29,811 nt of DNA, taken from the IMG/VR virus record IMGVR_UViG_3300025674_000253, positions 1 through 29,811 of that record; one strand, 5' to 3'. The position numbers were made by a program, and so were the translations under genes. Positions 4,047 to 29,707 of this stretch are shown here, one piece after another. The notes below the pieces were generated by a model that did not search any database, was not told the DNA's origin, and saw only the letters and a program-made list of their open reading frames with translations. Every line of letters starts with the position of its first letter. The stretch's first letter is position 1. This DNA is from a virus.

Positions 4047-5147
4047 TCACTTTAGGTCACGGATAGAACCATGTCCTCCGAAGAAAGTAGTCCATAACTC
4101 TCCCATTGTGCGGTACATACCTTCTTGTCCTAGTCTGTTGATAGCGAATGGGTCGCCTGTCTCGATACCGGACTCAAAGTATTGTGTTGGAATTGCTGTA
4201 CTGAAGTAAACGTAGTCAGTATCAAGGAAGTACATTCTGCTCAGTGTGTCGGGCTGTACATCTTTGGAAGGGATAATTGGTACACCGTTGTAAGTTGCTA
4301 CGATAAATCCAGCCTCAATACCCGGTACACCCTTAACACCGTTGTAGGTAGGTGTGACTCTCTTCTCTTCCATGAACCTTTGTTGGCTCTGTAGAAGTTG
4401 CTGTAGTCTCATCAAAGTGTCATATCCTGTTAGGATAACCTTTGGATTACCACCACGAGTCCAAATCTTTTGGAATAGGTCATCTAGGTGGTCTAGTGAT
4501 AGAACTCTGTCAGTTCCACTGTTCTCATTGTGTTCTGCCAATGACCATGAGTTTGCACTTCGGTCAATGGAGTAAATGTCTTCGTCTGTACCTGCGGAAG
4601 CACCGGTGGTGATTCTGTCAAGTGATTCAAAGTCGTTTCCAGCAACAGTTGCCTTGTCAGTAGTTAGCATCTTGTTGATGTGTTCTGCGTGGTGCTTACC
4701 CATCTCTTCTTTCATGATAGAGCGAATGTCACCAAGTCCGTCATCCTTGTCTGCAAGGAACATTGCTGTCTCAGACATGTCGAATGTGTGTACGATTGTC
4801 TTTGGCTTTGCTGCAATGTTTTGGAAGGTTGGCTTGGTTGTGTCCGGTAGAGTAGCGTTTTCTGCTACACCGCCACCTACGTTAAACGATGGGCGACCTG
4901 TGATAACTCTCCAACCGCTTCTCTCCCACGGCCTCTTTGGTAGAATGCTAAATGCATTGAATTCTTGGTTCAACTGTGACCATACTTTACGACCATAAAT
5001 CGCTTGGTATGTACCAGCAGTTGTGCTTAACATTGGCGAATCTGCCTTTAACAACTCGCTACCGGAGTAGGAGTAACCCATAGCGTTACCCGCACCGTAG
5101 TAGTAGCGTTCCATGTCGTGAATGTTTCTGATATAATCTCTTGCCAT
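4047..5147 (-). CDS. Major capsid protein, HK97 fold
   Basis: A 366-residue protein identified as the major capsid protein by position (immediately after protease/scaffold) and by sequence. Residues about 60-120 give the E-loop/N-arm region. The conserved late part includes KVILTGYDTLMRLQQLL, then GFIVATYNGVPIIPSKDV and FLDTDYVYF, a pattern found in many HK97-fold capsid proteins (an 'NGvPii.s..vp' strand followed by a final beta segment). It lacks a long N-terminal delta domain, fitting a separate scaffold at the end of the protease gene. The ribosome site is very strong (TAAGGAGATGAG before ATG at 5147). The product would form the hexamers and pentamers of the icosahedral head. Confidence 0.92.
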   Translation of the reverse strand: MARDYIRNIHDMERYYYGAGNAMGYSYSGSELLKADSPMLSTTAGTYQAIYGRKVWSQLNQEFNAFSILPKRPWERSGWRVITGRPSFNVGGGVAENATLPDTTKPTFQNIAAKPKTIVHTFDMSETAMFLADKDDGLGDIRSIMKEEMGKHHAEHINKMLTTDKATVAGNDFESLDRITTGASAGTDEDIYSIDRSANSWSLAEHNENSGTDRVLSLDHLDDLFQKIWTRGGNPKVILTGYDTLMRLQQLLQSQQRFMEEKRVTPTYNGVKGVPGIEAGFIVATYNGVPIIPSKDVQPDTLSRMYFLDTDYVYFSTAIPTQYFESGIETGDPFAINRLGQEGMYRTMGELWTTFFGGHGSIRDLK

Positions 5148-6559: not shown

Positions 6560-6571
6560 GGTATTTATACC
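6560..6571 (-). promoter_or_regulatory. Archaeal-type TATA box for leaderless capsid transcript
   Basis: Read on the minus strand, GGTATAAATACC contains TATAAATA at 6569-6562, which is -26 to -19 relative to the A of the protease ATG at 6543. Transcription about 25 bases downstream of the box centre would begin at or next to the start codon. The bases in between contain no GGAG-type ribosome site, unlike the neighbouring genes. It overlaps the stop of the giant upstream gene. The box is also flanked by a small dyad (GGTAT, two bases, ATACC). Transcription-factor binding is inferred. Confidence 0.55.
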
Positions 6572-16761: not shown

Positions 16762-16896
16762 TCATTTCTTCTTATCTTTGATACCGACTTTCTTTGGTTT
16801 GGCTACGGTAATCACCATAATCATACCACCCTTCTTCGGTTTTTCTTCTTCGCCTTTTGATTTCAAAAAACCCATTACATAATCCATATTTATCAT
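16762..16896 (-). CDS. Small lysine-rich 44-residue protein after large terminase
   Basis: A short frame reading MINMDYVMGFLKSKGEEE, then a basic C-terminus ending in KDKKK, with about one third Lys. The start ATG at 16896 overlaps the terminase stop as ATGA, exactly as the neighbouring gene pairs do, and the frame fills most of the otherwise empty space before the LAGLIDADG gene. An internal hydrophobic stretch (GGMIMVITVA) is a likely beta strand and is too short for a membrane helix. Function is unknown. It might be a DNA- or terminase-binding peptide. The alternative start at 16887 gives 41 residues. Confidence 0.5.
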   Translation of the reverse strand: MINMDYVMGFLKSKGEEEKPKKGGMIMVITVAKPKKVGIKDKKK

Positions 16897-18383
16897 GGTA
16901 TCATCCATCCGTCTGCTAAACTATCTCTTCTATTTCTATGTGGTTTGCCGGTTAGCCATTCATCAAATCCGGGCATTACATCATCGAGTAAGACCACTGA
17001 ACCCTTGAACTCCTTAGTAGCCCAATTAGCCAATGCAAGACTCATTGCTAAGTCATCGTGAGTACCCACGCTTTCTAACTTACCATTCTTTTGCATACCG
17101 AAGCGGTTCAACTCCGTTTCTAATTTGTGAGTAAACTCTCTGCTTCTCTTGTCTCCATACGGAGTTTGAATCTGCCCTTGCTCAAATGCCATCAATAGTG
17201 ACATGAACATACTTTCTTTGCGCTGTCGAGTTGTCATGAAAGTCTTGATTGGTATATCGTTTCTCATTTCTTTTAATTCAGCCTCAAACATTCGCTGGAA
17301 GTTGTTACCTTCAAGTTCAATCAAATCGGGTTGGAAACGATTGTTCAGTAGAAGAATCTGTTTCTTCTGCGCTAATCCACCAACACCCTTTTCATGGAAT
17401 ACACCAACAATTTGTTTTGTGTTGTCATCGGGAAGTGTTCGTAGTACAGTCATTGCTGTAAAGTCAGCATTCTTATCAGAAGCAATTGCTGTGTCCCACC
17501 CAATGAAGTGCTGACCAAATACACCAGCCGGTTCTCCCTCTTCATCGTACTCAGTTTCGGCCCTATCGAGTAAAACCAAATCTTTGTTACGAGCCTTTTC
17601 CAATATGTCATTAGGGAACATACTCGCTACATCGTGAATAGGTTCACACAGATATTCACGAGAGAACTGTATCGCTGGCATTGACATTCGTCTTTGGTCA
17701 AGTGATTCTAAGTCCCACCGTTCGGGCCACAGTGCCTCACCTTGCTCATTTATCGCAGGATATGTTTCAACAGTAAATGTTTCAGTCTGCTCAAGTTGAG
17801 AATATAAATCGTTATACGAAAACGGTGTACCTACCATCATCAGTCTACCTGTGTGGTGCAGAACAGGAAGCAATACACCATAGAACCAATCTGCTGCTCT
17901 TTGTAATTCAGTACCCGTAGTACCCCACAAAATATCGTCACACAGTACAACATTCGGGTGGAAACCACGAGTACCTCCACCAACTGACTTTGCCATTATA
18001 CGGCTACCATTTGAAAACTCAAAGTAAGTCTTACGCCACGGTCTACCTTCGGGAATTAAGTACCTTAAACACGGCGTACCTTCTATGTTATTGCGAATGA
18101 AACGCATGTGTTCTAGTGTCTGTTCAAGAGAGTGTGAGAAAATCATGATGTGTGTATTAGGTTGAAACGCTGCAATCCATAATGCACGACTCATAAAAAA
18201 TACAGATTTACCGTGGTCACGACTCGCTTTAACACAGTAGTATCTGTTTTTATTAAGACCCTCATCCCAACTTTTGTGATGTCCCGAATAATCAAAACCT
18301 AAAATTTCTGTAAAGAAATACTGAAAGGATTTGGCAGACATCTTTCTGTCCATATCCATGATAAACTCAGTCATGTCGGTCAT
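16893..18383 (-). CDS. terL: Terminase large subunit (ATPase and nuclease)
   Basis: A 496-residue DNA packaging motor. The ATPase domain has a Walker A variant KASRDHGKS (residues 52-60), Walker B VVLCDDILWG with acidic residues 149-150, and a coupling motif MMVGTP (182-187). The C-terminal RNase H-like nuclease shows the three expected acidic sites: Asp297 in FIGWDTAI, Glu358 in LIELEGNN, and Asp443/444 in VGTHDDLAMSLA. Length is normal for TerL and the frame is intact. It acts at the portal vertex, cutting and translocating genome DNA into proheads with the small subunit. The start at 18383 has GGTGA about 5 bases upstream. The next small gene overlaps its stop. Confidence 0.95.
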   Translation of the reverse strand: MTDMTEFIMDMDRKMSAKSFQYFFTEILGFDYSGHHKSWDEGLNKNRYYCVKASRDHGKSVFFMSRALWIAAFQPNTHIMIFSHSLEQTLEHMRFIRNNIEGTPCLRYLIPEGRPWRKTYFEFSNGSRIMAKSVGGGTRGFHPNVVLCDDILWGTTGTELQRAADWFYGVLLPVLHHTGRLMMVGTPFSYNDLYSQLEQTETFTVETYPAINEQGEALWPERWDLESLDQRRMSMPAIQFSREYLCEPIHDVASMFPNDILEKARNKDLVLLDRAETEYDEEGEPAGVFGQHFIGWDTAIASDKNADFTAMTVLRTLPDDNTKQIVGVFHEKGVGGLAQKKQILLLNNRFQPDLIELEGNNFQRMFEAELKEMRNDIPIKTFMTTRQRKESMFMSLLMAFEQGQIQTPYGDKRSREFTHKLETELNRFGMQKNGKLESVGTHDDLAMSLALANWATKEFKGSVVLLDDVMPGFDEWLTGKPHRNRRDSLADGWMIP

Positions 18384-18387
18384 GGTA

Positions 18388-20472
18388 TCACCGAACCATC
18401 TTGTCTAAGTATAATCCCATGACGATAGAACCGACTTCATGCGGGTCAGCCTTATGAAATAAGTCACCAAACTCATTGAACATCATATTTACAAATGATT
18501 TCCACTTAATTCTTGGGTCTTTTCGCCAATCAGCAAAATTATCTTGAGCGTCAATTAAACTCATTCCATCATTTTGATTTCTTAAGGAAGTGTCACCGCT
18601 TAGAGTCTTTCTACCGGAAAATGGAGTTCTACGAGATATAGTAGCACCCGGCCCTAATTTTGTTGATTCACCAACAGGTAATCTATTAGGATTAGTATTA
18701 AGAGAAGCCAATGCCGCATCTAATGGAGATTGTTGCTGGTAAGTTTGAGGTGTGTCTTGCCAATTAATGTCATCTCCTATATGTGGTCTTACACTACTTG
18801 GAAGTCCCGCATACATTTGTTCTCCACTCATAGATGGTACATTACGAGAGCCAGCATAAGCATCTTCTGTTGTATCAAAGTCACTTGCTCTATACTCTTT
18901 ATTAGAAGTAGTTATATTAGGTGCTTGATATGGTATTGCTTGGGGTTTTTGTACAGGATTTAAAGACCCACCAAATATATTATCATAATAACCCGGTGCT
19001 ACTCCTTGAGGTAAAGCAGGAGGGGTTCGGCTACCCATTAATGCTGGTGGTGGAGGTGTAGTATCTATTACAGGTGTACGTTGTAAATCTTCTATTTTTG
19101 GTGACTGTGATGCTATATTAGGATTACCGGGTAAATTTGCTACGCTTGGTAACTCTTCTGCCGGTGGAGGTGTGGTTTGCATAGGTGGTTTAACACGGAT
19201 ATTTCCTAATTTGTCACTTGGGTCATTCATTCTACGCTCAAGTTCTGCTCGCTTATCTTGTCTTGTTGGAGGTGTTTGAACAGGTTCGGGTACAAGTTGT
19301 ACATCGCTGTTATCGGGTACCTGTGCATCACCTATATCTTGAAAAGTTTGATTAAGTTCATTTTCATATCTTTTTGTATTTTTACGAGTTTGTCTTGCTT
19401 CTTGGAATTTTGCTTCACGATTAGCCCTATCAAGTAAACTTCGTTTTACTCCTACGTTTGGTGCAGCAGGTTGAGGTGTTTTTCCCATTTGTTGCCCTAA
19501 GTTTTTACCAGCATTTATCATTGCAGCGTTATTTTGAGGATTTACCGGGCCTTGTCCGGTATTACCCCCGTAAATTAAGTTTTGAACAGGTTGAACTAAT
19601 TGAGATGGTAAAGCATCAAAAGGATTAGAGATATTTTGAGGCGCAGCAGGTGCAGGTTGAGCAGGTGCAGCAGGTGCAGCAGGGTTAGTAGGATATGATG
19701 TAATTAGATTGGGATTAGCAGGTTGAGCAGGTGCAGGTTGAGCAGGTGCAGGTTGAGCAGGTGCAGGTTGAGGTGCAGCAGGTGCAGGGGCGGCTTGAGC
19801 AGGTGGTTGACCAAACATGCCCTGTGGCACTGTAGCGGCCAAAGCCCCTGCCACTTGAGTTGGTTGAGTAGTTGGTTGAGTAGTTGGTTGAGTAGTTGGT
19901 TGAGTAGTTGGTTGAGTAGTTGGTTGAGTAGTTGGTTGAGTTTGTATTTGACCCAATTTTGGGCCTTGACTACCCGGTAGTGCTGTACCTGTAGAAGTCT
20001 GTTGCGTTTGCAGTTGTTGGTTAAATGGACTTTGCTCTTGATATTGCTGCACTTGGGCTTGAGTGGCAGCAGCAGGGTTTGTGACATCAATTCCCGCATT
20101 TGTCATTGCTTGCAAATCTTGAGTATTCGCTGTTTTTTGTGCATCCATTACCATTGTGCGCTGCTGTTCAGCAGGTGTTACATCTCTTTTCATTCCTGTA
20201 GTTGGGTCTATTCCAGCGTAGGTATATCCAGCACCTAATGCACCACCTATATTACCACCTTGTAATTGATTTGCTACTTGTATTCCTGTAGCACCTAAAG
20301 CGGCAAACTTACCAGCAAGACCAAGACCGGCTCTAACTTTATCCATTCTATTTGCGGTAGGGTCTTTGAAGCGACCAAATAATTGCATCATAGATGGGCG
20401 TGAACCTTCTTCAGCACCAATTTGTTGAAACTGCTGCACAGCAGGGGCTTGCTTTACGAGAATCTTACTCAT
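18388..20472 (-). CDS. Large Pro/Gln-rich low-complexity protein
   Basis: A 694-residue protein with no recognised catalytic domain. Residues about 45-90 are Gly/Ala-rich and mildly hydrophobic (GLGLAGKFAALGATGIQVA). Residues about 125-400 are low-complexity Pro/Gln/Ala/Thr, including a TTQP tandem repeat and an AQPAP tandem repeat. The middle is polar and disordered-looking. The last about 55 residues (FADWRKDPRIKWKSFVNMMF, then GSIVMGLYLDKM) are a compact helical end that may be the docking domain. The start at 20472 follows GGAGGCGATGAG. It directly precedes the large terminase, and its neighbour upstream is also large and unknown. A virion or internal head role is plausible, not shown. 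Confidence 0.75.
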   Translation of the reverse strand: MSKILVKQAPAVQQFQQIGAEEGSRPSMMQLFGRFKDPTANRMDKVRAGLGLAGKFAALGATGIQVANQLQGGNIGGALGAGYTYAGIDPTTGMKRDVTPAEQQRTMVMDAQKTANTQDLQAMTNAGIDVTNPAAATQAQVQQYQEQSPFNQQLQTQQTSTGTALPGSQGPKLGQIQTQPTTQPTTQPTTQPTTQPTTQPTTQPTQVAGALAATVPQGMFGQPPAQAAPAPAAPQPAPAQPAPAQPAPAQPANPNLITSYPTNPAAPAAPAQPAPAAPQNISNPFDALPSQLVQPVQNLIYGGNTGQGPVNPQNNAAMINAGKNLGQQMGKTPQPAAPNVGVKRSLLDRANREAKFQEARQTRKNTKRYENELNQTFQDIGDAQVPDNSDVQLVPEPVQTPPTRQDKRAELERRMNDPSDKLGNIRVKPPMQTTPPPAEELPSVANLPGNPNIASQSPKIEDLQRTPVIDTTPPPPALMGSRTPPALPQGVAPGYYDNIFGGSLNPVQKPQAIPYQAPNITTSNKEYRASDFDTTEDAYAGSRNVPSMSGEQMYAGLPSSVRPHIGDDINWQDTPQTYQQQSPLDAALASLNTNPNRLPVGESTKLGPGATISRRTPFSGRKTLSGDTSLRNQNDGMSLIDAQDNFADWRKDPRIKWKSFVNMMFNEFGDLFHKADPHEVGSIVMGLYLDKMVR
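19719..19775. repeat. 15-bp tandem repeat encoding AQPAP
   Basis: Three full units of CAGGTTGAGCAGGTG plus a partial unit on the plus strand, in the low-complexity region of the 694-residue protein. Each unit keeps the reading frame. Confidence 0.85.
19859..19941. repeat. 12-bp tandem repeat encoding TTQP
   Basis: Six perfect units of GTTGGTTGAGTA on the plus strand followed by a partial one. On the coding strand each gives TTQP. Perfect units with no third-position drift suggest recent expansion or ongoing slippage, and the frame is preserved whatever the copy number. Confidence 0.92.
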
Positions 20473-20473
20473 C

Positions 20474-22435
20474 TCATCGCCTCCTTTTCAGTACAGCCAT
20501 TACTCTGTCCATGACATCGTTTGATTTATAGTATTGGGAAAGTAACCTCTGTCTTGGGTCAGCCAATGCAGCCTGTGCCCTGCTTTCTATAGGTGATAAT
20601 TCCGATGATGTAGGTCTTGCTAGAACAGGCGCACGACCTGCGGCTTGCATCATTTCTCTAAACTGAGATGGGGAGTAACCAGCAATTTGCTGTCTTACAT
20701 CTTGGAATCTTGGGGGTGTCCCAACAGAAGGCGGAGGAAGTGAAGCCGCACCAGCAGACGGCTCTTGACCAAGTTGCTCTGTCGTGGTAGGAGAAACAGG
20801 AGGTGTGACACCCTCTGTCGGGACTGTAGGTTTGGATATAGATGGGTCGAATGCCCCTGTAGGTGCGAAGTGGTGCATTTGGTAAATGTAATCATCCATG
20901 TGTGGCTCAAGAGTATTGGTATCATACTGACCTGTAGCCTCATCCATTGTAGGATAACCATGAATGTTGTATGTTTTCATTGGTTCAGTAGGAATGTCAC
21001 CAAGTCCACGTTTTACTTCATGTCCTCTTGCACCTGCTTGATGGTCAGCCAATGCCTCAATGACTTTTCTAAACCTGTCAACTTGAAGCATTAGTGCATC
21101 GCTATAGTGATAATTCGCTGCTTTTAATTCATCAGCAGTTATTTTGTGTTCACCAAATTTACTACGACCTTCTTCACTACCCTCTCCCGATGCACGAGCA
21201 AGAGCGAACAATCTCTTTGCGCTGGTGTGCATTCCTTGTCCACCCTTTTCTCCTTCTTTCAGATACTTAGCGTGTTCATCAAGAGAAAGCGCACCTTCAT
21301 CTGCACCATATTTTGTCATCATGTGGTCATACAGTTTCTTAAAATCTCCTTGTCCACTGCGACCAAATAAGAACATCATAGCAGGCACATGCGCCATATC
21401 TCGCACCAATGCTTCTCTCAAATCGGGAGTGCGAAGAATTTCATGCAATGGTCTGTTTATCATATCGGGTGCGCCTAAACTTTTACCACGATTGATAGTT
21501 ACGTTTACATTTGGAATGTGTTCTAATCCTTGTTGCATGGCTTGGTCTATCATTGCATGAGCCGCATTATACAACTTAGTAGGTGCTTTACCTTTCTTAG
21601 TCAAATTGGCTTTTAAATTAGGATAATAGAAAATATCGGGTAGGTGATGTGCTATCTCCCATGTGTGTACTGATTGTCTATCTCCATAGTAACCTTCGGG
21701 GGCATGGCTCATCATAGATGAGTCTACTTCACTTGGATGCTGCTTTGCGTAAGAACGCAAGTACCCTTCCGGTGCTGTCATGTTTGCATAAATATACGGG
21801 TACTTAGTGAAAGGTAGTGCTTGTTTAACTTCAGATTCGGGAACACCCATATCTGTTAATTCCTTTAGCAGTGATTTATTGAATGGAACATAATATGATT
21901 CAAGGAAACGACCCATAGGAGTTGCTTCGTGATTCTTGTTTGTAAGCATAGTAATTTTGTTACCACTATGAGTTCTTACAGGTCTGTTGTTTGAGGTATG
22001 GGTAGAGTCGCCCGGTGGAAGTGCATTACCACGCATCTTCCTCCATTCTAAAGAGTGAAACGGATTTTGCTCGTGTTTGTCTAAGTTAGAATGAGTTTCA
22101 TTAGAATGCTTAATCGCATTGTTTATTACATCAATAGCGGGAACAGGAATACCTCTTGCTTTCAAAAACTCTCCAAGATGATGTGCTACTGCGTCAATAC
22201 CGTGTCTAAAGTCTCCTAACGCTGTGCGATATACATGCTCTCCATGCTCTCCCTTAACGAATTGCCCTTCAATATGTTGCCCTCTACCATTATGGGCAAA
22301 CGCCGGAATATCCATTTCACCATCGGGTCTAAAATGGGTTTCGGGAGGATTAGTAAATACCGTTGGTCCTTCGGGCGGATGACCTACAATACTCCACGCT
22401 TTGATTAGTGGAATACCTCTTCGTATTCCTATCAA
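20474..22435 (-). CDS. Large hypothetical virion-cluster protein
   Basis: A 653-residue protein not recognised as any family. The first about 480 residues look folded and mostly helical, with many His residues (for example FRHGIDAVAHHLGEFLKARG and ALVRDMAHVPAMMFLFGRS). Residues about 530-600 are Pro/Thr/Gln-rich linker. The C-terminal about 55 residues (GYSPSQFREMMQAAGRAP, then RQRLLSQYYKSNDVMDRVM) are helical. The start is TTG at 22435, overlapping the previous gene as TTGA, behind an AAGGGGG stretch. An ATG-started version would lose a large part of the frame. It may be an internal or ejected virion protein given its size and location upstream of the terminase. Confidence 0.72.
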   Translation of the reverse strand: MIGIRRGIPLIKAWSIVGHPPEGPTVFTNPPETHFRPDGEMDIPAFAHNGRGQHIEGQFVKGEHGEHVYRTALGDFRHGIDAVAHHLGEFLKARGIPVPAIDVINNAIKHSNETHSNLDKHEQNPFHSLEWRKMRGNALPPGDSTHTSNNRPVRTHSGNKITMLTNKNHEATPMGRFLESYYVPFNKSLLKELTDMGVPESEVKQALPFTKYPYIYANMTAPEGYLRSYAKQHPSEVDSSMMSHAPEGYYGDRQSVHTWEIAHHLPDIFYYPNLKANLTKKGKAPTKLYNAAHAMIDQAMQQGLEHIPNVNVTINRGKSLGAPDMINRPLHEILRTPDLREALVRDMAHVPAMMFLFGRSGQGDFKKLYDHMMTKYGADEGALSLDEHAKYLKEGEKGGQGMHTSAKRLFALARASGEGSEEGRSKFGEHKITADELKAANYHYSDALMLQVDRFRKVIEALADHQAGARGHEVKRGLGDIPTEPMKTYNIHGYPTMDEATGQYDTNTLEPHMDDYIYQMHHFAPTGAFDPSISKPTVPTEGVTPPVSPTTTEQLGQEPSAGAASLPPPSVGTPPRFQDVRQQIAGYSPSQFREMMQAAGRAPVLARPTSSELSPIESRAQAALADPRQRLLSQYYKSNDVMDRVMAVLKRRR

Positions 22436-24090
22436 CCCATGTGCCCCCTTCGTGAAATTAATGCACCAGCAGGGTCAAGACCTAGACGACTAGAGTTAGT
22501 TTCTAGGTTTTGAGTTGGCCCATCATTCTTTTCATCTTCATCCTCATGTTGTTGTACACCGGCAGGATGGTCGGGAACATGACCGTTTTCAAAAGCAGAA
22601 CCTCCGCCTTGAACATACTTCTTAATTTTCTTAGCCTCTTTTTCTTTGGCTTGAATTAATCTTCGCATTAGGTTAAGCAACTCATATCTTCGTGCAATAT
22701 TTCTTGCTTTGAGCAATTCGCTGTATTCCTGTGCATCTTCACTCATCATAATACTCGATGGTGCTGCTGGCATACTTGGAACTGAACTTTGCATGGCTGG
22801 CATAGACGGCATAGACGGCATAGATGGTCTTCTTGGTCGCCTAATTCTTGGTCGCCTTACACCTAATTGCCTCAAAGATGGCTGAGTCATCTGTCCTCTC
22901 TGACCTGCAAGTAGTCCACTTAGACGACCCGCACCGGTAGGGCCAGCACTGAAACTGCGCTGACCAAACCTACCACGAGGGGAGTATGGAGTGCGAACAT
23001 TACCCTGTATTTTACGGGCTTCAGACTGACCACGGTATGCCGTATATTTCTGTGGGTCTTTACTCATTGGTTGCTTTGTAGCAATACCACGGTGGCTCAT
23101 CTCTACAGACAAGTGTGGTTTCATCAAACCTGTTTTCTTACCGCTTGAGATACCACGCATTCTTGCAGCGTGTCGTCTTTTAGTAGCACCTACACCACCA
23201 CTCATACCACCCGGTGGTGTTTTGAATTGACCTGTAGATGGTCTAAACTGCTGTCGTGCTTCTCTCCTTCTGCGAGCCGCAATAGTCTTTGCAGTATCAC
23301 GCTTGAGTATTTCAGACCAAGCATCCTCCATCGGCTCGCTCATGGTAAAGCCTGTTTTTTCATTAAATGGCACATTAGTAAAATCACGATATTCATGTTC
23401 TATGTCGTCAAACGGAGGTCGTGCATCATCAACTTGAAAATTATGTAAATCATATAATCTCTCAAAAAACTCTTCACGAGATGTAGCACCTGCTAAATGG
23501 TTAATATCGGGTTGTTGAAAATCATCTGCAAGTCCTTCATATTCAGCAGGGTTATCTAATGTTTCTTGAATCCAATCATACCATTCGGGGTGAACATCAT
23601 CACGATTTGGCATATTGTATCGGTGTTTATATTGGTTTTCTCCGGGGTGTACAGTAGGTTCTTCCTTCAACAAACTACTCCAAGCATCCTCCATCGGCTC
23701 ACTCATCGCAATAGGAAGGCCGGGACTCATTGCTGAACCTGTACCGGATTTTGCGCCTGTCGCAAGGTCGAGTAATGTACCCCTACTTCCAGCAGGGCCA
23801 CCCTGTAGTCCCATTTCACGCTCATCATCACGCTTGTTACCATCATCTAGTCCATCTAGCGACTCATCACCGCCAAGTTTCTGCTTAGAACTAATTTTAA
23901 TGTGCTTGATTTTTGATTTGCGCTCTTTCTTTTCTTCTTCCTTGCGCTTCTTTTCATCACGCTTTTGTTCGTTATATTCGGGAGAAGCGGGGTTATATTT
24001 TGTTTCATCCTCATTTGCAGATGAATACATTTTATCTGATTCACTGCGAGGTGAATACATGCGAGTATCAGAGCCACGACCCATTACCAT
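22432..24090 (-). CDS. Large basic/disordered protein with two MSEPMEDAWSxxLK peptides
   Basis: A 552-residue protein with no known domain. Residues about 1-90 are highly charged (Lys/Glu/Arg repeats). Two near-identical peptides, MSEPMEDAWSSLLK and MSEPMEDAWSEILK, occur near residues 129-142 and 250-263. A third, looser version (MSEDAQEYSELLKARN) lies near 450. Between them, residues about 265-440 are Arg/Gly/Ser/Pro-rich, strongly basic, with short repeats such as RRPRR and MPSMP. A helical segment with coiled-coil potential follows at about 455-495. The basic middle could bind DNA or RNA. The repeated peptide suggests several docking sites for one partner. It overlaps the small-terminase-like gene stop as TAATG. 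Confidence 0.72.
   Translation of the reverse strand: MVMGRGSDTRMYSPRSESDKMYSSANEDETKYNPASPEYNEQKRDEKKRKEEEKKERKSKIKHIKISSKQKLGGDESLDGLDDGNKRDDEREMGLQGGPAGSRGTLLDLATGAKSGTGSAMSPGLPIAMSEPMEDAWSSLLKEEPTVHPGENQYKHRYNMPNRDDVHPEWYDWIQETLDNPAEYEGLADDFQQPDINHLAGATSREEFFERLYDLHNFQVDDARPPFDDIEHEYRDFTNVPFNEKTGFTMSEPMEDAWSEILKRDTAKTIAARRRREARQQFRPSTGQFKTPPGGMSGGVGATKRRHAARMRGISSGKKTGLMKPHLSVEMSHRGIATKQPMSKDPQKYTAYRGQSEARKIQGNVRTPYSPRGRFGQRSFSAGPTGAGRLSGLLAGQRGQMTQPSLRQLGVRRPRIRRPRRPSMPSMPSMPAMQSSVPSMPAAPSSIMMSEDAQEYSELLKARNIARRYELLNLMRRLIQAKEKEAKKIKKYVQGGGSAFENGHVPDHPAGVQQHEDEDEKNDGPTQNLETNSSRLGLDPAGALISRRGHMG
23302..23343 (-). repeat. Second copy of the MSEPMEDAWSxxLK-coding repeat
   Basis: A 42-base segment encoding MSEPMEDAWSEILK. 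The companion copy is at 23665-23706 and encodes MSEPMEDAWSSLLK. The two DNA stretches coding MSEPMEDAW differ at one base only, so this is a recent or conserved internal duplication. Confidence 0.85.
23665..23706 (-). repeat. First copy of the MSEPMEDAWSxxLK-coding repeat
   Basis: A 42-base segment in the 552-residue protein gene, paired with 23302-23343. The peptide also resembles AWxxLK motifs in three other proteins of the window. Confidence 0.85.
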
Positions 24091-24767
24091 TACTCTACCC
24101 CCATGTTTTCTTCTAACTGACGCTTAATACGCATCCAAGTATCGGGGCTTTCTTTACCCAATTCAACTTGTAGGATATTGAATGTTTGATTGACTTGTTG
24201 TCCATCACTCTGTGCGCCCCATTGGTCTTGGAATCGCAGTAGGTCTTTTACAGTTTCACGCACTTCTTTGTGAAGCGATACTGCATCTCTTACAAACCCA
24301 TCTTCATGTACTGTACCTTCGTCAAGTAATTCAGATAATTTATGATTAAGTTTTTCTGCGTTAGAGCGAAGCAAGTTGATTTCTTGACCTGCTACTAACG
24401 CCACTTCAATTGCTGCTGTCTTTTGTACAAGCGGTTGGAAGTGGTGCTTCATGTGGTGATACACTGTGCTTTCGGCAATACCTAAATCTTCAGCGATGTT
24501 CTGACTTACTGAACCATCATCAAAGAAAGCCCTTTCATATTCTGCTCTCATTGGAGAGGTACATACCACGCAATCTACGTTTGCGCCCATGTGATACTCA
24601 CCCATATGATTGCGATAATGACGGTCTGCGGTGTTTGCTCTCCACCCCATATCTTTGTCTAATTGTCTAGCAGAAATGGCACCTTGAAGCATCTGAGATT
24701 CAAACTCATCTCTATCTTCGTGAACGCAAAAGGCGCAAGAGCGTTTAGTCACCTTACCCTCCGCCAT
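24090..24767 (-). CDS. Probable terminase small subunit with two zinc-binding HTH units
   Basis: A 225-residue protein. Residues 11-54 and 66-109 are two copies of one unit: a CxxC pair (CAFC; CVVC), a helix-turn-helix-like stretch (GAISARQLDKDMGWRANT; GSVSQNIAEDLGIAESTV), then a paired His motif (HYRNH; HHMKHH). Each could bind one zinc through Cys2His2. The C-terminal half is a long helix suited to oligomerisation (LLRSNAEKLNHKLSELL and LHKEVRETVKDLLRF). A DNA-binding N-terminus plus oligomerising C-terminus upstream of the large terminase is the classic small-subunit layout, so a packaging-site recognition role is likely. No ribosome site precedes ATG at 24767, but a TTTTTAAT stretch at about -28 could serve a leaderless promoter. 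Confidence 0.68.
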   Translation of the reverse strand: MAEGKVTKRSCAFCVHEDRDEFESQMLQGAISARQLDKDMGWRANTADRHYRNHMGEYHMGANVDCVVCTSPMRAEYERAFFDDGSVSQNIAEDLGIAESTVYHHMKHHFQPLVQKTAAIEVALVAGQEINLLRSNAEKLNHKLSELLDEGTVHEDGFVRDAVSLHKEVRETVKDLLRFQDQWGAQSDGQQVNQTFNILQVELGKESPDTWMRIKRQLEENMGVE

Positions 24768-24826: not shown

Positions 24827-25063
24827 ATGTGGCGTGGTAAGAGAATAGCCAAAGTCCCGCTTACTAAAGCGACCATAGACAGTTTGAAAACTGCTGTAAT
24901 GGATGTAGTAAAAGGGGAATATGCACCACTAATTTTGAAAGAAGAAAGACTACGAATTTGCGATACCTGTCCTTACAGTGGAACCCAATGTGAAATGTGT
25001 GGTTGTCACTTGAAAACTAAAGTATCTTTACTTAATTCTAAATGCCCATTAAATAAATGGTAA
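24827..25063 (+). CDS. Small zinc-ribbon protein, only plus-strand gene
   Basis: A 78-residue protein. Residues 45-73 carry six cysteines arranged CDTCPYSGTQCEMCGC ... CPLNKW. This ribbon, ending in a CP-x-x-x-W tail, is widespread in small phage proteins of unknown function. The N-terminal 40 residues are basic then helical. The start is supported by GGGAG about five bases upstream of ATG. It is divergent from the small-terminase-like gene and its stop abuts the stop of the convergent membrane-protein gene at 25064, so no terminator fits between them. Its separate orientation suggests separate timing of expression. Confidence 0.78.
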   Translation: MWRGKRIAKVPLTKATIDSLKTAVMDVVKGEYAPLILKEERLRICDTCPYSGTQCEMCGCHLKTKVSLLNSKCPLNKW

Positions 25064-25312
25064 TCATTTAGATATTCTTGAAAAGATACCGGTAATCATC
25101 AGAATACTAGCAAACAATCCAATCAACAAATAAGATGCTGACTGTGAACCCATTTCATCTCCTTTGAATACAAGTAGTAGTAACATGGTGATAAATGAGG
25201 CAATAAACTGTACCATAATCATGTCTATAATTACACTTCTTGATGGATTCAAAACATCAAGTGTACTGTTTGCAAATCCTACCGGCACATAATTCCTATC
25301 TTTGTCATACAT
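25064..25312 (-). CDS. Two-helix small membrane protein
   Basis: An 82-residue protein with two hydrophobic helices, near residues 28-49 (IDMIMVQFIASFITMLLLLV) and 58-77 (SASYLLIGLFASILMITGIF), joined by a short polar loop. There is no signal-peptide cleavage pattern. The ribosome site is strong (AGGAGGA, about 8 bases before ATG at 25312). It is the last gene of the GTPase-containing operon. The fold is too small to assign. A holin-like or membrane-assembly part is possible, but no holin family motif is recognised. Confidence 0.72.
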   Translation of the reverse strand: MYDKDRNYVPVGFANSTLDVLNPSRSVIIDMIMVQFIASFITMLLLLVFKGDEMGSQSASYLLIGLFASILMITGIFSRISK

Positions 25313-25313
25313 A

Positions 25314-25940
25314 TTATCTTCCTCCTGTCAATAAACTACGGGCAAAGGTTCCTACGCCTCCACCTACTTTTTGCATCATTCCTTCATCTTGCAATGCTGC
25401 TTGTAGGGCACCACCCATCATTGATTGTTGAGCCATAACTGCTAACTGTTGTTGCTGGCTTTCCGCCGCATTGATGTTTTGGGTAGCCGTACTTTGAAGA
25501 ATACTAAAGTTACTCTTGACGTTTTCAGCACTAATGGTTTGCAAGTTTTGAGGCAACTTAGTTACATCAAGAGTTAGTGTACCTTCATCTTCATTTAGAT
25601 TAAATGTAGCATTTCTCAATATTTCAAGTACACTGTATGATACTACAGTTCCAAGCATTTCTACAAGTGTACCCATTTGTTGACTTGCGATAAATCTGTC
25701 TACCGGGACAATACCACGAAGCAACATAATTTGAATTTCTATTTCAGAAGGTGGTGCGATTGGTTGTTGACCCCATTGATTAGATTGACCGTTAGTTAAT
25801 CCTTGCATAAACGGGTTACTACCCACATTACCAAGTGTGCCCTGTGGCTGTGCAAACGGGTTTTGAGGTTGTTGTGGTACACCAAGATTTAGCGCACCAT
25901 TATTACCCATTGGCTGAGAATTGTTGTTAATACCAAACAT
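25314..25940 (-). CDS. Asn/Gln-rich protein of the GTPase operon
   Basis: A 208-residue protein. Residues 1 to about 70 are Asn/Gln/Pro/Gly-rich and probably disordered. Residues about 70-140 look folded (EIEIQIMLLRGIVPVDRFIA, then TLVEMLGTVVSYSVLEIL and a beta stretch GTLTLDVTKLP). The end is a helical Gln/Ala/Met-rich segment. The frame extends to a GTG at 25949 overlapping the previous gene, but the ATG at 25940 is preferred because GGTGA lies about 5 bases before it. No known family. Gln-rich helices are common in virion proteins, so a structural role is possible. Confidence 0.65.
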   Translation of the reverse strand: MFGINNNSQPMGNNGALNLGVPQQPQNPFAQPQGTLGNVGSNPFMQGLTNGQSNQWGQQPIAPPSEIEIQIMLLRGIVPVDRFIASQQMGTLVEMLGTVVSYSVLEILRNATFNLNEDEGTLTLDVTKLPQNLQTISAENVKSNFSILQSTATQNINAAESQQQQLAVMAQQSMMGGALQAALQDEGMMQKVGGGVGTFARSLLTGGR

Positions 25941-25941
25941 C

Positions 25942-26868
25942 CTATTCACCTACCCCAAGAGGTTGCTCTTCAAGACTCTTTTGTTGAACCAACTGACCCA
26001 TCATCATTTGTTGGAAAGCAGCAGTAGGTTGATTCATTGCTGCTAATTCTTCTTGGAAAATACGCAAATCAAACACAATCATTGTCACATCATTTAGATT
26101 TGTAGATGGATTTTTGTAATGAAGTATATTGATACCGTTAGTGCTTCGTGAATCCTTTTCCAACTCTGCAAAAAACGGCTCATACTTTTCTAAGAATGCT
26201 GGTGTAGGGTCTTTCTTTACTATAGAAGAAACCGGTACACTAACTAAACTAACACCTTTTTTGACTCTATCACGAAGAGTCTTAGGGTTTGACTCTTTCA
26301 CTTTGTCTTCTTCAGTTTCCCACTTACAAAGTAAATGGTAAAGATGCATATGTTCGGGGCAGTATGTACCTCTCATCTTTCTACCTGTAGTAACCTTATC
26401 TCTAGCAATGAATGCTTCGGGCTGACCACTAATTGGATTCTGCCAATACAATTCCCACAGTGATTGATTTGTGTCTTCATCACGAATTTTATTGTACAGA
26501 TTATCATGTTGTATTAGAGCAGCACAATCGCAACCATCTACTACACACATGCTAGTTTGCTTATCATAACGATACTTTCTTCCCAAAGCCCATCTCAAAG
26601 GATTGAATATACTTCTTTTTGATGGAGAAAGTAATTTGTACGCCTGTTTGATGTCCTTTTTTCTTGCTTTATGTGGGTCGGGGTGACGAGAAGGATAGAA
26701 GTTAACTTTTGGAACTTGAATATTGTTTTCTGTATGCATGTCCCTCATTGCTGCTTGTGCAGTTGCTTGTTGTGTCAATGCTTGATGTGTCAATGCACTA
26801 TTGCCTTGCTGACTTAGAGCATACAAGTGCGCTGTATTCGCATCACCTAAATTGTATTGATTATTCAT
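25942..26868 (-). CDS. Protein with a Cys/His metal-binding centre, GTPase operon
   Basis: A 308-residue protein of unknown function. The N-terminal 45 residues are Ala/Gln/Thr-rich. Residues about 45-215 look folded and contain a probable zinc site split across the chain: CVVDGCDC near 108-115 and TYCPEHMHLYHLLC near 168-181. The rest has a basic segment, then a beta-rich domain (DVTMIVFDLRIFQEELAAM) and a Gln/Met-rich end. The ribosome site AAGGCGG lies about 8 bases before ATG at 26868. The N- and C-terminal Gln-rich ends resemble those of its downstream neighbour, suggesting they interact, which is inference. Confidence 0.68.
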   Translation of the reverse strand: MNNQYNLGDANTAHLYALSQQGNSALTHQALTQQATAQAAMRDMHTENNIQVPKVNFYPSRHPDPHKARKKDIKQAYKLLSPSKRSIFNPLRWALGRKYRYDKQTSMCVVDGCDCAALIQHDNLYNKIRDEDTNQSLWELYWQNPISGQPEAFIARDKVTTGRKMRGTYCPEHMHLYHLLCKWETEEDKVKESNPKTLRDRVKKGVSLVSVPVSSIVKKDPTPAFLEKYEPFFAELEKDSRSTNGINILHYKNPSTNLNDVTMIVFDLRIFQEELAAMNQPTAAFQQMMMGQLVQQKSLEEQPLGVGE

Positions 26869-26870
26869 AT

Positions 26871-27044
26871 TTATTCCGCCTTTACTATTTCTATACTACG
26901 AGTTTCATTTTCTGAATCCCAATTGATTTTCCAACTAATTTCATCGCCTTTACTTAGACCCATTAGTTCTGCAATCCACATTGGGATAACTGTTCTAATG
27001 CTATTACTTGCCTTACCTACTGAAGCAATTTTTGTTCTTGTCAT
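26871..27044 (-). CDS. AbrB/SpoVT-like swapped-hairpin DNA-binding protein
   Basis: A 57-residue protein. MTRTKIASVGKASNSIRTVI followed by PMWIAELMGLSKGDEISW matches the AbrB/MazE-type swapped-hairpin domain: a short basic strand, 'S.RttIP' and 'l.l..GD.i.w', ending in a beta strand (TRSIEIVKAE). Such proteins dimerise and bind DNA, often as regulators or antitoxins. ATG at 27044 is chosen over an upstream in-frame start at 27095 because AGGTGA lies about 7 bases before it and the longer form would run into the GTPase gene. No toxin partner is seen next to it. A role as regulator of this operon or of host genes is inference. Confidence 0.72.
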   Translation of the reverse strand: MTRTKIASVGKASNSIRTVIPMWIAELMGLSKGDEISWKINWDSENETRSIEIVKAE

Positions 27045-27052
27045 ACTATCAC

Positions 27053-27769
27053 CTATACTGTTAAAAGTTCTATTAATGTGTTTTCTACATTCCATCCTAT
27101 TCTTGTTGCCATGAATGATTTTTGTGTAGGAATACCTGCTTTTTGTAATCTAATTAAATCGTCACGAAATGGGTCAAACACTTTGTGTTCACCAATTCTA
27201 TCCTGCCCCCAAAGTAGTGCAGCAGTTTCATCAAAAAATCTATCAGCCTTATTTGCTACAAGCATAATTACTCTTGGAGTGTATTTTTTACCCTTCCACC
27301 ATGATTTTAAATTACGATAACGATATTGTCTGTAAATAATTGCATCAACAAGATATTTGAAGCCAGCAATTTGTTGTAATGCCTCATCGCCACCTCGCAT
27401 TGCTCTTTCATCAAACATGTAAACTACAGCCTCTACTTGACGATTAACCATATCATCAGTCCAAAGATTCCAAAATCTCTCTTGTCCTCCTATATCAGCA
27501 GAATAAACAACTCTTTTATTCCCTTTCCATGATATTCTTTTACGAGTTGGTTTAGGCAAAAGATACCTACCTAGTAGTTTTAAATGCACAGTTCTGTCTT
27601 CATCGGGTATTTCTTCCATTTCACCCGGTGTAGTCATATATCTGTCAAGAGTAGTCTTACCCACTAATCCAGCACCGTAAATACCAACCTTTCTTGGTTT
27701 CCACGAATTGTATAGGTTTTGACCCCATAATGCGGCACCCACCAATGCTGAACCTGCGGGGTCTACCAT
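27053..27769 (-). CDS. Ras/Arf-like small GTPase
   Basis: A 238-residue protein with a complete small-GTPase signature: G1 P-loop GAGLVGKTT (residues 32-40), G3 DIGGQERFW (92-100), G4 NKAD (173-176) and a G5-like FMATRIG (219-225). DIGGQERF blends the Arf-type GGQ and the Ras/Rab-type GQERF forms. Switch I probably includes Thr60 (DEDRTVHL). The first about 27 residues (ALVGAALWGQNLYNSW) could be an amphipathic membrane-contact helix, as in Arf. Residues about 140-165 are a basic, Tyr/Arg/Trp-rich insertion. It follows a one-helix membrane protein gene (TAATG overlap) and a two-helix coiled-coil membrane protein. Small GTPases are unusual among virus genes. It probably switches assembly at a membrane, which is inference. 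Confidence 0.88.
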   Translation of the reverse strand: MVDPAGSALVGAALWGQNLYNSWKPRKVGIYGAGLVGKTTLDRYMTTPGEMEEIPDEDRTVHLKLLGRYLLPKPTRKRISWKGNKRVVYSADIGGQERFWNLWTDDMVNRQVEAVVYMFDERAMRGGDEALQQIAGFKYLVDAIIYRQYRYRNLKSWWKGKKYTPRVIMLVANKADRFFDETAALLWGQDRIGEHKVFDPFRDDLIRLQKAGIPTQKSFMATRIGWNVENTLIELLTV

Positions 27770-28026
27770 TAATCAACCAACCCCGATAACCATTCTCCAA
27801 AGGCTACAACCTTATTCCAAAACCATTCTACAGTGTTTACCCATATTGATTCTTCTGAATGATATTCATAGTAACTTGCTATTAGTATTCCTAAAAGCGT
27901 ACATACAACAGTACGAAGCCATCCAACACTACGCTCGTAATAATTGTCAAGTGTATTTTGAGTGTGCATTGCACGAAGCGTTGCTTCAGTAGAATCATCC
28001 GTAGGAGTTTTGAAGATTCGACCCAA
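27769..28026 (-). CDS. One-helix membrane protein next to GTPase
   Basis: An 85-residue protein with one hydrophobic segment near residues 37-52 (LRTVVCTLLGILIASYY), preceded by a polar basic/acidic N-terminus and followed by a Trp-rich amphipathic helix (IWVNTVEWFWNKVVAFGEWL). The start appears to be TTG at 28026 with GGTGA upstream at about 7 bases. The next Met is at residue 20. It overlaps the GTPase gene as TAATG, so the two are probably made in matched amounts. A membrane receptor or anchor for the GTPase is a natural guess, not shown. Confidence 0.68.
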   Translation of the reverse strand: MGRIFKTPTDDSTEATLRAMHTQNTLDNYYERSVGWLRTVVCTLLGILIASYYEYHSEESIWVNTVEWFWNKVVAFGEWLSGLVD

Positions 28027-28036
28027 GAGGCATCAC

Positions 28037-28570
28037 CTACTTCTTTTTCTTTTCTTCCTCTTCTTCAGATACACCGAGGTTAATTGGTTGGTCAATTTCT
28101 GCATTATGTTGTGGAGGATGCTGAATTAGTTTGTTTTCATATTGGTCTACTAAAGACGGAGAGCCACCCGGTACACCCCATGATGGCGGCATCTTGCCGG
28201 GATTTTGTTCCATCCATCGCAATTCAGCCTCTAATTGTGCCTCTTGCATACGGATTTCCATTTCTGCTCTACGGTTATCAAACTGCGATTGCATACTACG
28301 GAAACGATGTTGTCTGTTTCTTTCGATATTCTGTATTCGTACTCTTTCTTGCATGTTCTGTTCAAAGAACATTTTGAAGAAGTAGTACGCAATACCCTGT
28401 ACAAAGAATGCAGCCATTGCGTATGTAAATCCATTCACCATAGCGTCATTACTGTTTAACCACATCCCTGCGTCAAACAGTCCAATAGCCAATCCTACAA
28501 GTGCTGATTGCGATAGAATCAGACCCATCAATCGTATTTCTGCATCCGAGTTGTTACTTGTGGTACTCAT
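28037..28570 (-). CDS. Two-helix membrane protein with cytoplasmic coiled coil
   Basis: A 177-residue protein. Two hydrophobic helices lie near residues 14-36 (GLILSQSALVGLAIGLFDAG) and 46-66 (GFTYAMAAFFVQGIAYYFF). A long charged coiled coil follows (about 68-122, rich in Arg/Gln/Glu/Met), then a proline-rich linker and a tail of Glu then Lys. Long charged coiled coils after membrane segments are typical of tethers. It is the first sizeable gene of the operon, translationally coupled to a 27-residue leader ORF by ATGA, and is followed by a one-helix membrane protein and the GTPase. Function is unknown. Confidence 0.75.
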   Translation of the reverse strand: MSTTSNNSDAEIRLMGLILSQSALVGLAIGLFDAGMWLNSNDAMVNGFTYAMAAFFVQGIAYYFFKMFFEQNMQERVRIQNIERNRQHRFRSMQSQFDNRRAEMEIRMQEAQLEAELRWMEQNPGKMPPSWGVPGGSPSLVDQYENKLIQHPPQHNAEIDQPINLGVSEEEEEKKKK

Positions 28571-28650
28571 GTGTCCTCACCATTGGTCAAATTATTGGTC
28601 ATTATAACCTTTTCGTTTTCCTCACTTTCCTCATTATTCACTTCACTCAT
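28567..28650 (-). CDS. Possible 27-residue acidic leader peptide
   Basis: A short frame starting at ATG 28650 and ending at 28567, overlapping the next start as ATGA like most gene pairs here. It reads MSEVNNEESEENEKVIM and ends NGEDT. A GAGGT stretch lies about 9 bases before its start. The peptide is very acidic and of unknown function. It may mainly couple translation to the membrane-protein gene. No termination-control stem was recognised in it. The exact coupling supports translation, while its size leaves chance possible. Confidence 0.42.
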   Translation of the reverse strand: MSEVNNEESEENEKVIMTNNLTNGEDT

Positions 28651-28657
28651 TTTGAGG

Positions 28658-28747
28658 TTACCTCACTTCATCATACTCTCTATTATTAATATAATATATT
28701 TAGTATAGTCATAATGAATGAAGTGAAGTATGAGGTAAGTGAGGTAA
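28658..28747. repeat. Imperfect inverted repeat around an AT-rich core
   Basis: The left arm 28658-28677 and right arm 28727-28747 are inverted copies: TTACCTCACTT is perfect, followed after a small mismatched gap by TCATACT. The 49 bases between are almost pure A/T in part. Extra GTGAGGTA/GTGAAGTA-like steps extend on both sides. Possible roles are operators of a dimeric regulator, an origin or packaging-type element, or simple chance in a low-complexity gap. It is the largest gene-free region here, at about 105 bases once the leader ORF is counted. Confidence 0.65.
28688..28702 (-). promoter_or_regulatory. Candidate TATA box of the GTPase operon
   Basis: On the minus strand the core of the intergenic region reads AAATATATTATATTA, a good archaeal TATA-like sequence, about 40-50 bases before the leader ORF start at 28650. 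Transcription would begin near 28670, leaving room for the GAGGT ribosome site. It sits centrally between the arms of the inverted repeat, where bound repressor or activator dimers could control it. Assignment is by base pattern and spacing only. Confidence 0.42.
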
Positions 28748-28755
28748 GTTATTAC

Positions 28756-29493
28756 TTACATATCACGCAGTGTGCCTTTTTCTTTGAAATGTCTTGCACG
28801 ATTCTCATGCTCACCTTCAAGAGTTAATTTACCACCTTTGGTGTGTGATACATCTTTATGGTCGTGAGAACCATAGATGCCACGCCTTCTGCGCTCTCTG
28901 TTCAAGTCTTCTCTATACTTGACACGTTCGGGACTAGACTCGTATTTCTTATCGTACTCTAACTTGTGACGTTTGGCTTCGGGACTTACACGCTCTTTAA
29001 GCAGTTGGAATGCAAGTTTCATTGGTTCACTTTTATTAGCCTCTTTAAAATCTTCAGAAAAATGGTCATATGGCTCAGTCTCTCTGTAAAATGCCATATG
29101 TCTAGCCATAGCCCACGGATGGCGAGGGTCATCCCATGATTCTAGGAATTGAGGTGATTTATCAGAATTAGGGTCAGACATATGCTGATTGATGTAATTT
29201 TTAAAATAAATTAACGCCATTGTTAGTCGGTCATACTCTTGGTCGGAAACAGTTTCGTGACCTTCTGCAAATAAATGGTTAAAGTCATATCCACTCCATC
29301 CTTCTTCGGATAAATACTCACTTGGTAAATCTAAAGTAGCGTCTGCTACTTTTTTCTGTCTATCATTCAAAGTCCAATATGGTCCTGCTGACGGAAACTT
29401 ATATTGAATTTTTTCATCATCAACCGGTGTCCTTTCTTTAGGGTCAAGAGGGTCTTCTTTGAGAAGTTGCCAAGCAACATCAATTGGATTCAT
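28756..29493 (-). CDS. Virion-accessory protein with AWQLLK start and basic HNH-like end
   Basis: A 245-residue protein. It begins MNPIDVAWQLLKEDPLDP and repeats the same type of peptide later (PMKLAFQLLKERVSPEA, near residues 156-172). The middle is polar and Tyr/Trp-rich (GYDFNHLFAEGHE). The C-terminal about 60 residues are basic (SPERVKYREDLNRERRRRG, then GSHDHKDVSHTKGGKL and ENRARH). This Arg-rich block followed by 'D.sH..gGk....N' is a recurring end domain of marine phage proteins and resembles an HNH/His-Me type fold, but nuclease activity is not shown. ATG at 29493 is preferred to an upstream in-frame start because the latter would overlap the preceding gene by about 60 bases. Confidence 0.7.
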   Translation of the reverse strand: MNPIDVAWQLLKEDPLDPKERTPVDDEKIQYKFPSAGPYWTLNDRQKKVADATLDLPSEYLSEEGWSGYDFNHLFAEGHETVSDQEYDRLTMALIYFKNYINQHMSDPNSDKSPQFLESWDDPRHPWAMARHMAFYRETEPYDHFSEDFKEANKSEPMKLAFQLLKERVSPEAKRHKLEYDKKYESSPERVKYREDLNRERRRRGIYGSHDHKDVSHTKGGKLTLEGEHENRARHFKEKGTLRDM

Positions 29494-29494
29494 C

Positions 29495-29707
29495 TTACTT
29501 ACCTGCCCAAGCATCACATGTATGGTCAGCACGACAGTTAAAATCGTACCATTCACAATATCCCGTCATTGGGTCATCTGTTTTTGATGAATCCCAAGCC
29601 TTACAGTTGCCACATTTCTTTGGCCCTGTTGCTTTACGATAGTTAGGTGCATCTTCTTTACCTTTCAAAACAAGCCACGCCTGTTCCATTACTGATAAGT
29701 AGTGCAT
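29495..29707 (-). CDS. Small five-Cys protein with MEQAWLVLK peptide
   Basis: A 70-residue protein. Residues 7-15 are MEQAWLVLK, similar to peptides in its neighbour and other genes here. Residues 32-64 have Cys at 32, 35, 51, 58 and 64 (KKCGNCKAW, then YCEWYDFNCRADHTCDAW), the 'CxxC...GxC...C..W' pattern of the high-potential-iron-sulfur-like small proteins often found in phages. Metal or iron-sulfur binding is possible. The start ATG at 29707 overlaps the preceding stop as TAATG. A GTG at 29719 and an ATG at 29686 are alternatives. Confidence 0.7.
   Translation of the reverse strand: MHYLSVMEQAWLVLKGKEDAPNYRKATGPKKCGNCKAWDSSKTDDPMTGYCEWYDFNCRADHTCDAWAGK

Follow-up and report, generated by a model that had tools for sequence, protein, structure and literature searches.

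A Ras-superfamily GTPase lies in a conserved membrane-protein operon beside the packaging module in a group of archaeal tailed viruses

Results

A small GTPase gene and its operon

In this study, we analyzed a small GTPase gene and its neighbors in a viral DNA stretch of 29,811 nucleotides (IMG/VR record IMGVR_UViG_3300025674_000253), referred to below as the window. The features of the locus and the two anchor genes of the packaging and capsid region are as follows.

28567..28650, minus strand: 27-aa ORF overlapping the start of the 177-aa gene by ATGA; a leader peptide or chance
28037..28570, minus strand: 177-aa membrane protein, first main gene of the operon (hydropathy, alignment, TATA-like sites)
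27769..28026, minus strand: 85-aa protein with a single transmembrane (TM) segment and a TTG start (ORF list, 124 loci, hydropathy)
27053..27769, minus strand: small GTPase of 238 aa, a divergent Arf-like member of the Ras superfamily (motifs, model, alignments, profiles); parts: N-terminal helix 4-23, G1 32-40, candidate G2 T60, G3 92-95, G4 173-176, G5 220-227
26871..27044, minus strand: 57-aa AbrB/MazE-like predicted DNA-binding protein (ATG at 27044, GGTGAT upstream; the mechanical ORF is 26871-27095)
25942..26868, minus strand: 308-aa soluble protein
25314..25949, minus strand: 211-aa Q/N-rich protein
25064..25312, minus strand: 82-aa protein with two clear TM segments by hydropathy, NPxRSVIxDMIMVQ...YSRITR
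24090..24767, minus strand: 225-aa HTH protein, probable small terminase subunit (TerS-like)
16893..18383, minus strand: large terminase subunit, which anchors the packaging module
4047..5147, minus strand: major capsid protein (SU10-like), closest to those of Druskaviridae haloviruses; anchor of a linkage test

A sequence-only reading of this DNA had placed two small membrane proteins directly upstream of the GTPase gene, and both ORFs (85 and 177 aa) were confirmed and carry hydrophobic segments. The 85-aa protein has a conserved 31-residue head (MGRIFKTPxDDSxExTLRAMHxxNTxDNxYE), a TM segment at 33-51, and a short tail with Trp, and its stop codon overlaps the GTPase start in TAATG. The 177-aa protein has a clear TM segment at 14-32 and a probable second one, which the hydropathy count misses at the threshold used, followed by a charged, heptad-like helix. 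This helix corresponds to the long coiled coil of the earlier reading; the helix itself was found, while its being a coiled coil is likely as judged by eye. The tail LKKDGTPDxRYK ends many of the 177-aa relatives and is absent from the window copy. The 177- and 85-aa genes are 10 bases apart in the window, and the median gaps over 124 loci are 6 bases for this pair and 3 bases between the 85-aa and GTPase genes. The region delimited earlier ran to 28650 and takes in the 27-aa ORF (28650-28567).

The operon reaches past these three genes, on into those for the 308-aa, 211-aa, and two-TM 82-aa proteins. TATA-like sites were found before the 177-aa gene in 57 of 122 loci and before the inner genes in 5-17 of 124-128. 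Since the enrichment is confined to this position, the 177-aa gene probably heads the transcription unit; a sigma-70 promoter scan is uninformative for archaea. At 28655-28745 (minus strand), in the intergenic stretch before this gene, lies an inverted-repeat-like sequence, TTACCTCACTT ... ATGAAGTGAGGTAA, a possible operator for the AbrB-like protein. In the 308-aa protein, C108, C170, and H173 are invariant and C113 is nearly so, which may indicate a metal site. Its model (pLDDT 75.8, pTM 0.55) matched no solved fold (E >= 2), and the profiles of the 308- and 211-aa proteins found nothing credible in the PDB. The assignment of the 225-aa protein as a small terminase subunit is probable from its HTH and position. 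Between it and the 82-aa gene, a 78-aa zinc-ribbon ORF (DUF6171, 26.2 vs 27 bits) lies on the opposite strand (24827-25063, plus strand). Beyond the other end of the operon, 28756-29556 (minus strand) encodes a 266-aa protein with a C-terminal phrog_6437 domain; many relatives each have more than one similar ORF (several in number), and some of the encoded proteins are about 900 aa long.

Motifs and conservation of the GTPase

The GTPase carries 32-GAGLVGKTT-40 as G1, 92-DIGGQERF-99 as G3, and 173-NKAD-176 as G4. The sequence-only reading had described this set as complete, as we found it to be, and had missed both G5 (220-MATRIGWN-227, ending 11 residues short of the C-terminus) and T60, an invariant residue of the relatives that is the candidate G2 Thr by its position. 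NKAD was found in 128/128 relatives, and every relative long enough to cover G1 has GxxxxGKT, which excludes a chance origin of the motifs. The alignment of 34 members has a mean column identity of 79%, and its invariant residues include G37, K38, T39, T40, R59, T60, D92, G95, and R98, as well as N173, K174, A175, D176, A221, T222, and G225. The position of the catalytic Gln in G3 is Gln in 64 members, Glu in 48, Asp in 8, and His in 2; the window protein keeps Gln. Because Gln is replaced in about half of the family, intrinsic hydrolysis may be poor, and the replacements suggest that members lacking Gln rely on another residue or a partner. As a speculation, the invariant R59 beside T60 might serve as an internal arginine finger.

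An N-terminal amphipathic stretch had also been claimed. The AlphaFold model predicts a helix at residues 4-23, so a helical stretch is present, but it is only weakly amphipathic (hydrophobic moment about 0.22); hydropathy gave no TM segment in it. The window protein starts with MVDP and its relatives chiefly with MVE, MVA, MSA, MSL, or MAG, some with MGG. Since these starts vary, Gly2, as used in myristoylation, is not a feature of the family.

The dN/dS values of the GTPase were 0.013-0.091 in 11 pairs, showing strong purifying selection. Mean identity to the window proteins was 77% for the GTPase and 59, 66, 66, 57, and 70% for the 85-, 177-, 308-, 211-, and 225-aa proteins, respectively. 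The GTPase is thus the best conserved protein within the module; the capsid protein is slightly higher (72-86% in large relatives).

Placement of the GTPase in the Ras superfamily

The AlphaFold model of the GTPase (pLDDT 76.7, pTM 0.77; switch I of low confidence) matched 607 PDB chains at E <= 0.001, the best being Rab, Rho, Ras, and G-alpha. The top 50 Foldseek matches were all Ras-superfamily or G-alpha proteins (prob 1.00, TM-scores about 0.37-0.63). When the model was searched against BFVD, the good matches were giant-virus GTPases. Direct Pfam scores were weak and all under cut-off (Roc, E 0.0013; Arf/Ras/Gtr1, E 0.13-0.18); PF00025 (Arf) gave 11.7 bits against a gathering threshold of 22.3, and TIGR00231 small_GTP gave E 0.0061, below its curated cut-off. 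No PHROG matched the GTPase and no match was found in 50,697 phage records, in agreement with the earlier statement that it is not a standard gene of tailed viruses.

Profile comparison gave a stronger signal. By hhalign, the GTPase profile aligned with an Asgard small-GTPase alignment at prob 98.0, spanning G1-G4, and with single Asgard GTPases at up to 95.7. A six-frame search of 148 Asgard genomes with the family profile (A1) found the Asgard proteins L340-L343, with E 1.9e-6 to 3e-4 per genome, and these aligned with the GTPase profile at prob 96.5-97. L340-L342 in turn score against Pfam Arf at E 7e-11 to 2e-16. By way of these Asgard proteins, the GTPase is placed as a divergent, Arf-side small GTPase; as far as the sequence comparisons go, the Arf link runs only through the Asgard intermediates. 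The Ras/Arf-like identity proposed earlier was therefore borne out by the fold search and by profile-profile probabilities of 97-98, vs a background maximum of 22.6 among 150 halovirus/vir519 ORFs, P-loop ATPases included. The profile search did not lead to a non-switch P-loop family, the placement that the sequence-only reading had named as contrary to its proposal. These three lines, the fold, the profile comparison, and the Asgard bridge, show that the GTPase belongs to the Ras superfamily.

In the tree, the viral GTPases grouped together (100/100), set off by a stem of 4.0 changes per column, and the neighbor of this clade, with weak support (82/52), was Asgard L341-L343. The Arf-like proteins of L341 (1213-2088) and L342 (1216-2088) are about 290 aa long and have a 110-residue N-terminal domain with CxxC, which lies outside the matched G domain.

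Comparison with known GTPase systems

The viral GTPase shares with Arf (PF00025) and Asgard Arf-like GTPases the order of the G domain, the DxGG in G3, and an N-terminal helix preceding the G domain. L341-L343 are the nearest cellular relatives found (DLGGQEDFWSLW vs DIGGQERFWNLW). Unlike Arf, the viral protein has a long basic insert before G4, often replaces the Gln, and lacks Gly2, and its family is set apart in the tree as a clade with a long stem. The giant-virus (Nucleocytoviricota) Rab/Ras-like GTPases, the top fold matches in BFVD, are likewise virus-encoded members of the superfamily; they differ in coming from eukaryote-infecting viruses and mostly share 11-18% identity with it.

Among prokaryotic systems, MglA/MglB resembles the viral protein in having a single-domain Ras-like GTPase. 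In MglA, the G3 Asp is replaced by Thr (PMC3000849), whereas the viral G3 Asp (D92) is invariant, and no Roadblock/MglB protein (PF03259) was found in 20 large contigs. An MglA-type switch was rejected on these two points; the comparison with MglA made earlier did not hold, and the earlier remark that no Roadblock/MglB-like activator lies nearby did (0/20). No known GAP or GEF fold was recognized, with Roadblock sought in the 20 large contigs and the 308-aa protein compared as a model. Roc-COR was also rejected, as the protein has 238 aa with no COR domain after the G domain and scores 19.4 vs 27 bits against Roc. The Rup family of prokaryotic small GTPases has canonical G motifs, and its Group 1 lacks the G3 Gln (PMC4316618). 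Compared by description, Rup and the viral GTPase share canonical G motifs, and the viral locus differs in that no signal-transduction partners were seen.

Linkage of the GTPase, membrane-protein, and packaging genes

Searches of viral contigs returned 64 contigs with the single GTPase query, 209 with the profile, and, when a divergent member (57% identity) served as the query, 143, the three sets partly overlapping. The gene order 177-85-GTPase-(AbrB-like)-308-211-82-225 was kept in 124/128 loci. The 85- and 177-aa genes were present in the same number, and the remaining 4 contigs are cut at the GTPase. All 128 loci carried the 308-, 211-, and 225-aa genes and a TM-bearing ORF at the position of the 82-aa gene, and 92 carried the AbrB-like gene. 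The synteny was also kept in the deepest clade (72-76% capsid identity).

The converse was examined with contigs fetched by other genes. The capsid gene retrieved 47 contigs. In 19 of them the DNA extends at least 24.6 kb upstream of this gene, and every one of the 19 has the GTPase, at a distance of 21.1-23.7 kb; the 28 without it all have less than 22.9 kb there. The TerS-like gene retrieved 80 loci, of which 73 contain the GTPase; the remaining 7 stop within 2.3 kb, before its position. In neither set was a virus of the group shown to be without the GTPase. These results show that the linkage of the GTPase, the membrane genes, and the packaging module is complete wherever the DNA suffices, so the tie between GTPase and membrane genes seen at one locus holds across the related viral contigs surveyed.

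Three loci in genome_contigs matched the GTPase. Each has the gene order of the viruses, and their bins belong to three organisms unrelated to one another. L125, L126, and L127 are contigs of the virus group that were binned into MAGs labelled Maricaulis, Asgard archaeon, and Cytophagaceae. These placements are probably binning errors, with an Asgard host conceivable for L126.

The viruses carrying the module

The window also carries portal and S78 protease genes. Portal and capsid searches matched archaeal viruses only, chiefly Druskaviridae haloviruses and then viruses of Methanomassiliicoccales and Methanofastidiosa. The long relatives are 95-118 kb, with PolB in 20/20, and one encodes TFIIB, an archaeal/eukaryotic factor. 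Magrovirales are viruses of marine Poseidoniales, related to Druskaviridae, with genomes of 90-110 kb and PolB (PMC12999244, PMC10768690); a capsid tree relevant to the assignment is available (PMC8651126). By capsid and portal, size, and PolB, set beside Magrovirales by description, the viruses are archaeal Caudoviricetes, most likely of this order, and marine archaeal hosts other than Poseidoniales are conceivable. The Druskaviridae HCTV-5 and HCTV-1 have related portal, capsid, and protease genes and no homologue of the GTPase or of the 85-, 177-, 308-, 211-, or 225-aa proteins; the sole weak match was to the AbrB-like protein, in vir519.

Several other features were observed in the rest of the window. 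Between the portal and protease genes, 6571-12330 (minus strand) encodes a protein of 1919 aa in which an ATP-dependent DNA ligase domain scored marginally (27 vs 26.2 bits); the haloviruses have a giant zeta-toxin-domain protein at this place. A gene between terminase and portal (15437-16741, minus strand) has a LAGLIDADG/HNH-like endonuclease domain and is placed like the HNH genes of HCTV-5. The GC skew is positive (+0.12 to +0.16) at 18001-21000, under the genes for 694- and 653-aa proteins, and negative in nearly all the remainder of the window; a match to the 694-aa protein was found in only 13 flank-limited loci.

Discussion

We propose, at about even odds, that the GTPase is a core GTP switch that organizes a membrane complex late in infection, during assembly or exit. 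We infer GTP cycling, binding to the 85- and 177-aa proteins, late timing, and a role in assembly or exit, the last two from gene position only. The module would be expressed as one unit, with the 177-, 85-, and 82-aa membrane proteins and two soluble partners, ahead of the packaging genes. Two elements could then hold the GTP-bound GTPase at the host membrane: its own N-terminal helix and the 85-aa protein, which would serve, through a conserved cytosolic head, as receptor or regulator. The GTPase and the 85-aa protein, joined by the 82-aa protein and the 177-aa TM/coiled-coil protein, would form a GTP-gated membrane complex, which hydrolysis might switch in late infection, at sites of virion assembly or at exit.

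The position of the operon also lends itself to another reading, in which the GTPase itself, as an assembly factor and not in exit, drives packaging or capsid assembly with the TerS-like protein, and the membrane proteins merely localize capsids. The TerS-like gene follows directly after the module and is inseparable from it, and the terminase, portal, protease, and capsid genes lie downstream on the same strand. However, HCTV-5 and HCTV-1, with similar portal and capsid, package without the module genes, so such packaging does not need the module, and we consider this reading unlikely. A role in host takeover or counter-defence, in which the GTPase imitates one of the host's small GTPases at the membrane to block a host pathway or superinfection, would fit its resemblance to cellular GTPases, the single-TM partners that could form a membrane receptor, and the adjoining AbrB-like regulator. 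It seems quite improbable to us, as accessory counter-defence genes are variable, whereas the GTPase is in every long-enough contig, fixed beside structural genes; PADLOC gave one weak hit only and no credible match to a defence system. The GTPase occurs throughout the group, keeps a fixed position, and exceeds its neighbors in conservation, and for these reasons we favor exit or membrane-bound assembly over counter-defence. The hijack of a host polarity system is likewise weaker than an assembly or exit complex, since the module gives no hint of proteins for motility or polarity.

It may also be asked whether the protein switches at all. A structural protein that binds GTP and keeps the G domain as a scaffold, with no cycling, would explain the variation of the catalytic Gln position (Q/E/D/H), a switch I strongly unlike that of known families, and the very long stem branch. 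The P-loop Lys and Thr, the G3 Asp, the candidate G2 Thr, R59, NKAD, and G5 are nevertheless strictly conserved, and these are the residues that bind nucleotide and Mg; there is little to recommend a mere scaffold. On searches that covered genome_contigs and the Asgard phylum, we strongly disfavor the recent capture of a host GTPase as an accessory gene. Small GTPases can be numerous in archaeal genomes (one Asgard bin has 42 PF00025 matches), but the viral proteins form a single fully supported clade whose stem measures about 4 changes per site, and the only matches in genome_contigs are the three loci with viral gene order in bins of unrelated organisms.

In the literature, no paper was found that names both magroviruses and a GTPase, with Philosof 2017 and Prabhu 2025 lying outside the search, and the magrovirus paper PMC10160649 does not mention any GTPase. 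Philosof 2017 and Prabhu 2025, where a mention is likeliest, may list the gene as a hypothetical or GTP-binding protein. To our knowledge, the exit mechanism of these archaeal viruses is undescribed, and we know of no description of a GTP-controlled membrane step in infection of this kind.

Membrane-coupled small GTPase switches are regarded as a speciality of eukaryotes and Asgard archaea, and the chief example from bacteria is MglA. In the viruses described here, an abundant marine archaeal group, a Ras/Arf-superfamily GTPase belongs to the invariant core genes and is tied both to the packaging module and to a trio of membrane proteins. Judged by its sequence, the GTPase appears to be a new family within a long-known superfamily, found in a new context and with a proposed role at the membrane. 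Its sequences form a deep branch of the GTPase superfamily, separate from the others. We suggest, tentatively and with more doubt than confidence, that a lineage of prokaryotic viruses operates an Arf-like GTPase switch of its own, with dedicated membrane receptors, shaping or breaching the archaeal membrane at assembly or exit. If this is true, it would be a viral counterpart of the eukaryote-style, GTPase-controlled remodeling of membranes and possibly the missing exit machinery of these archaeal tailed viruses. The module provides a named set of genes for testing how these viruses assemble at or leave the cell.
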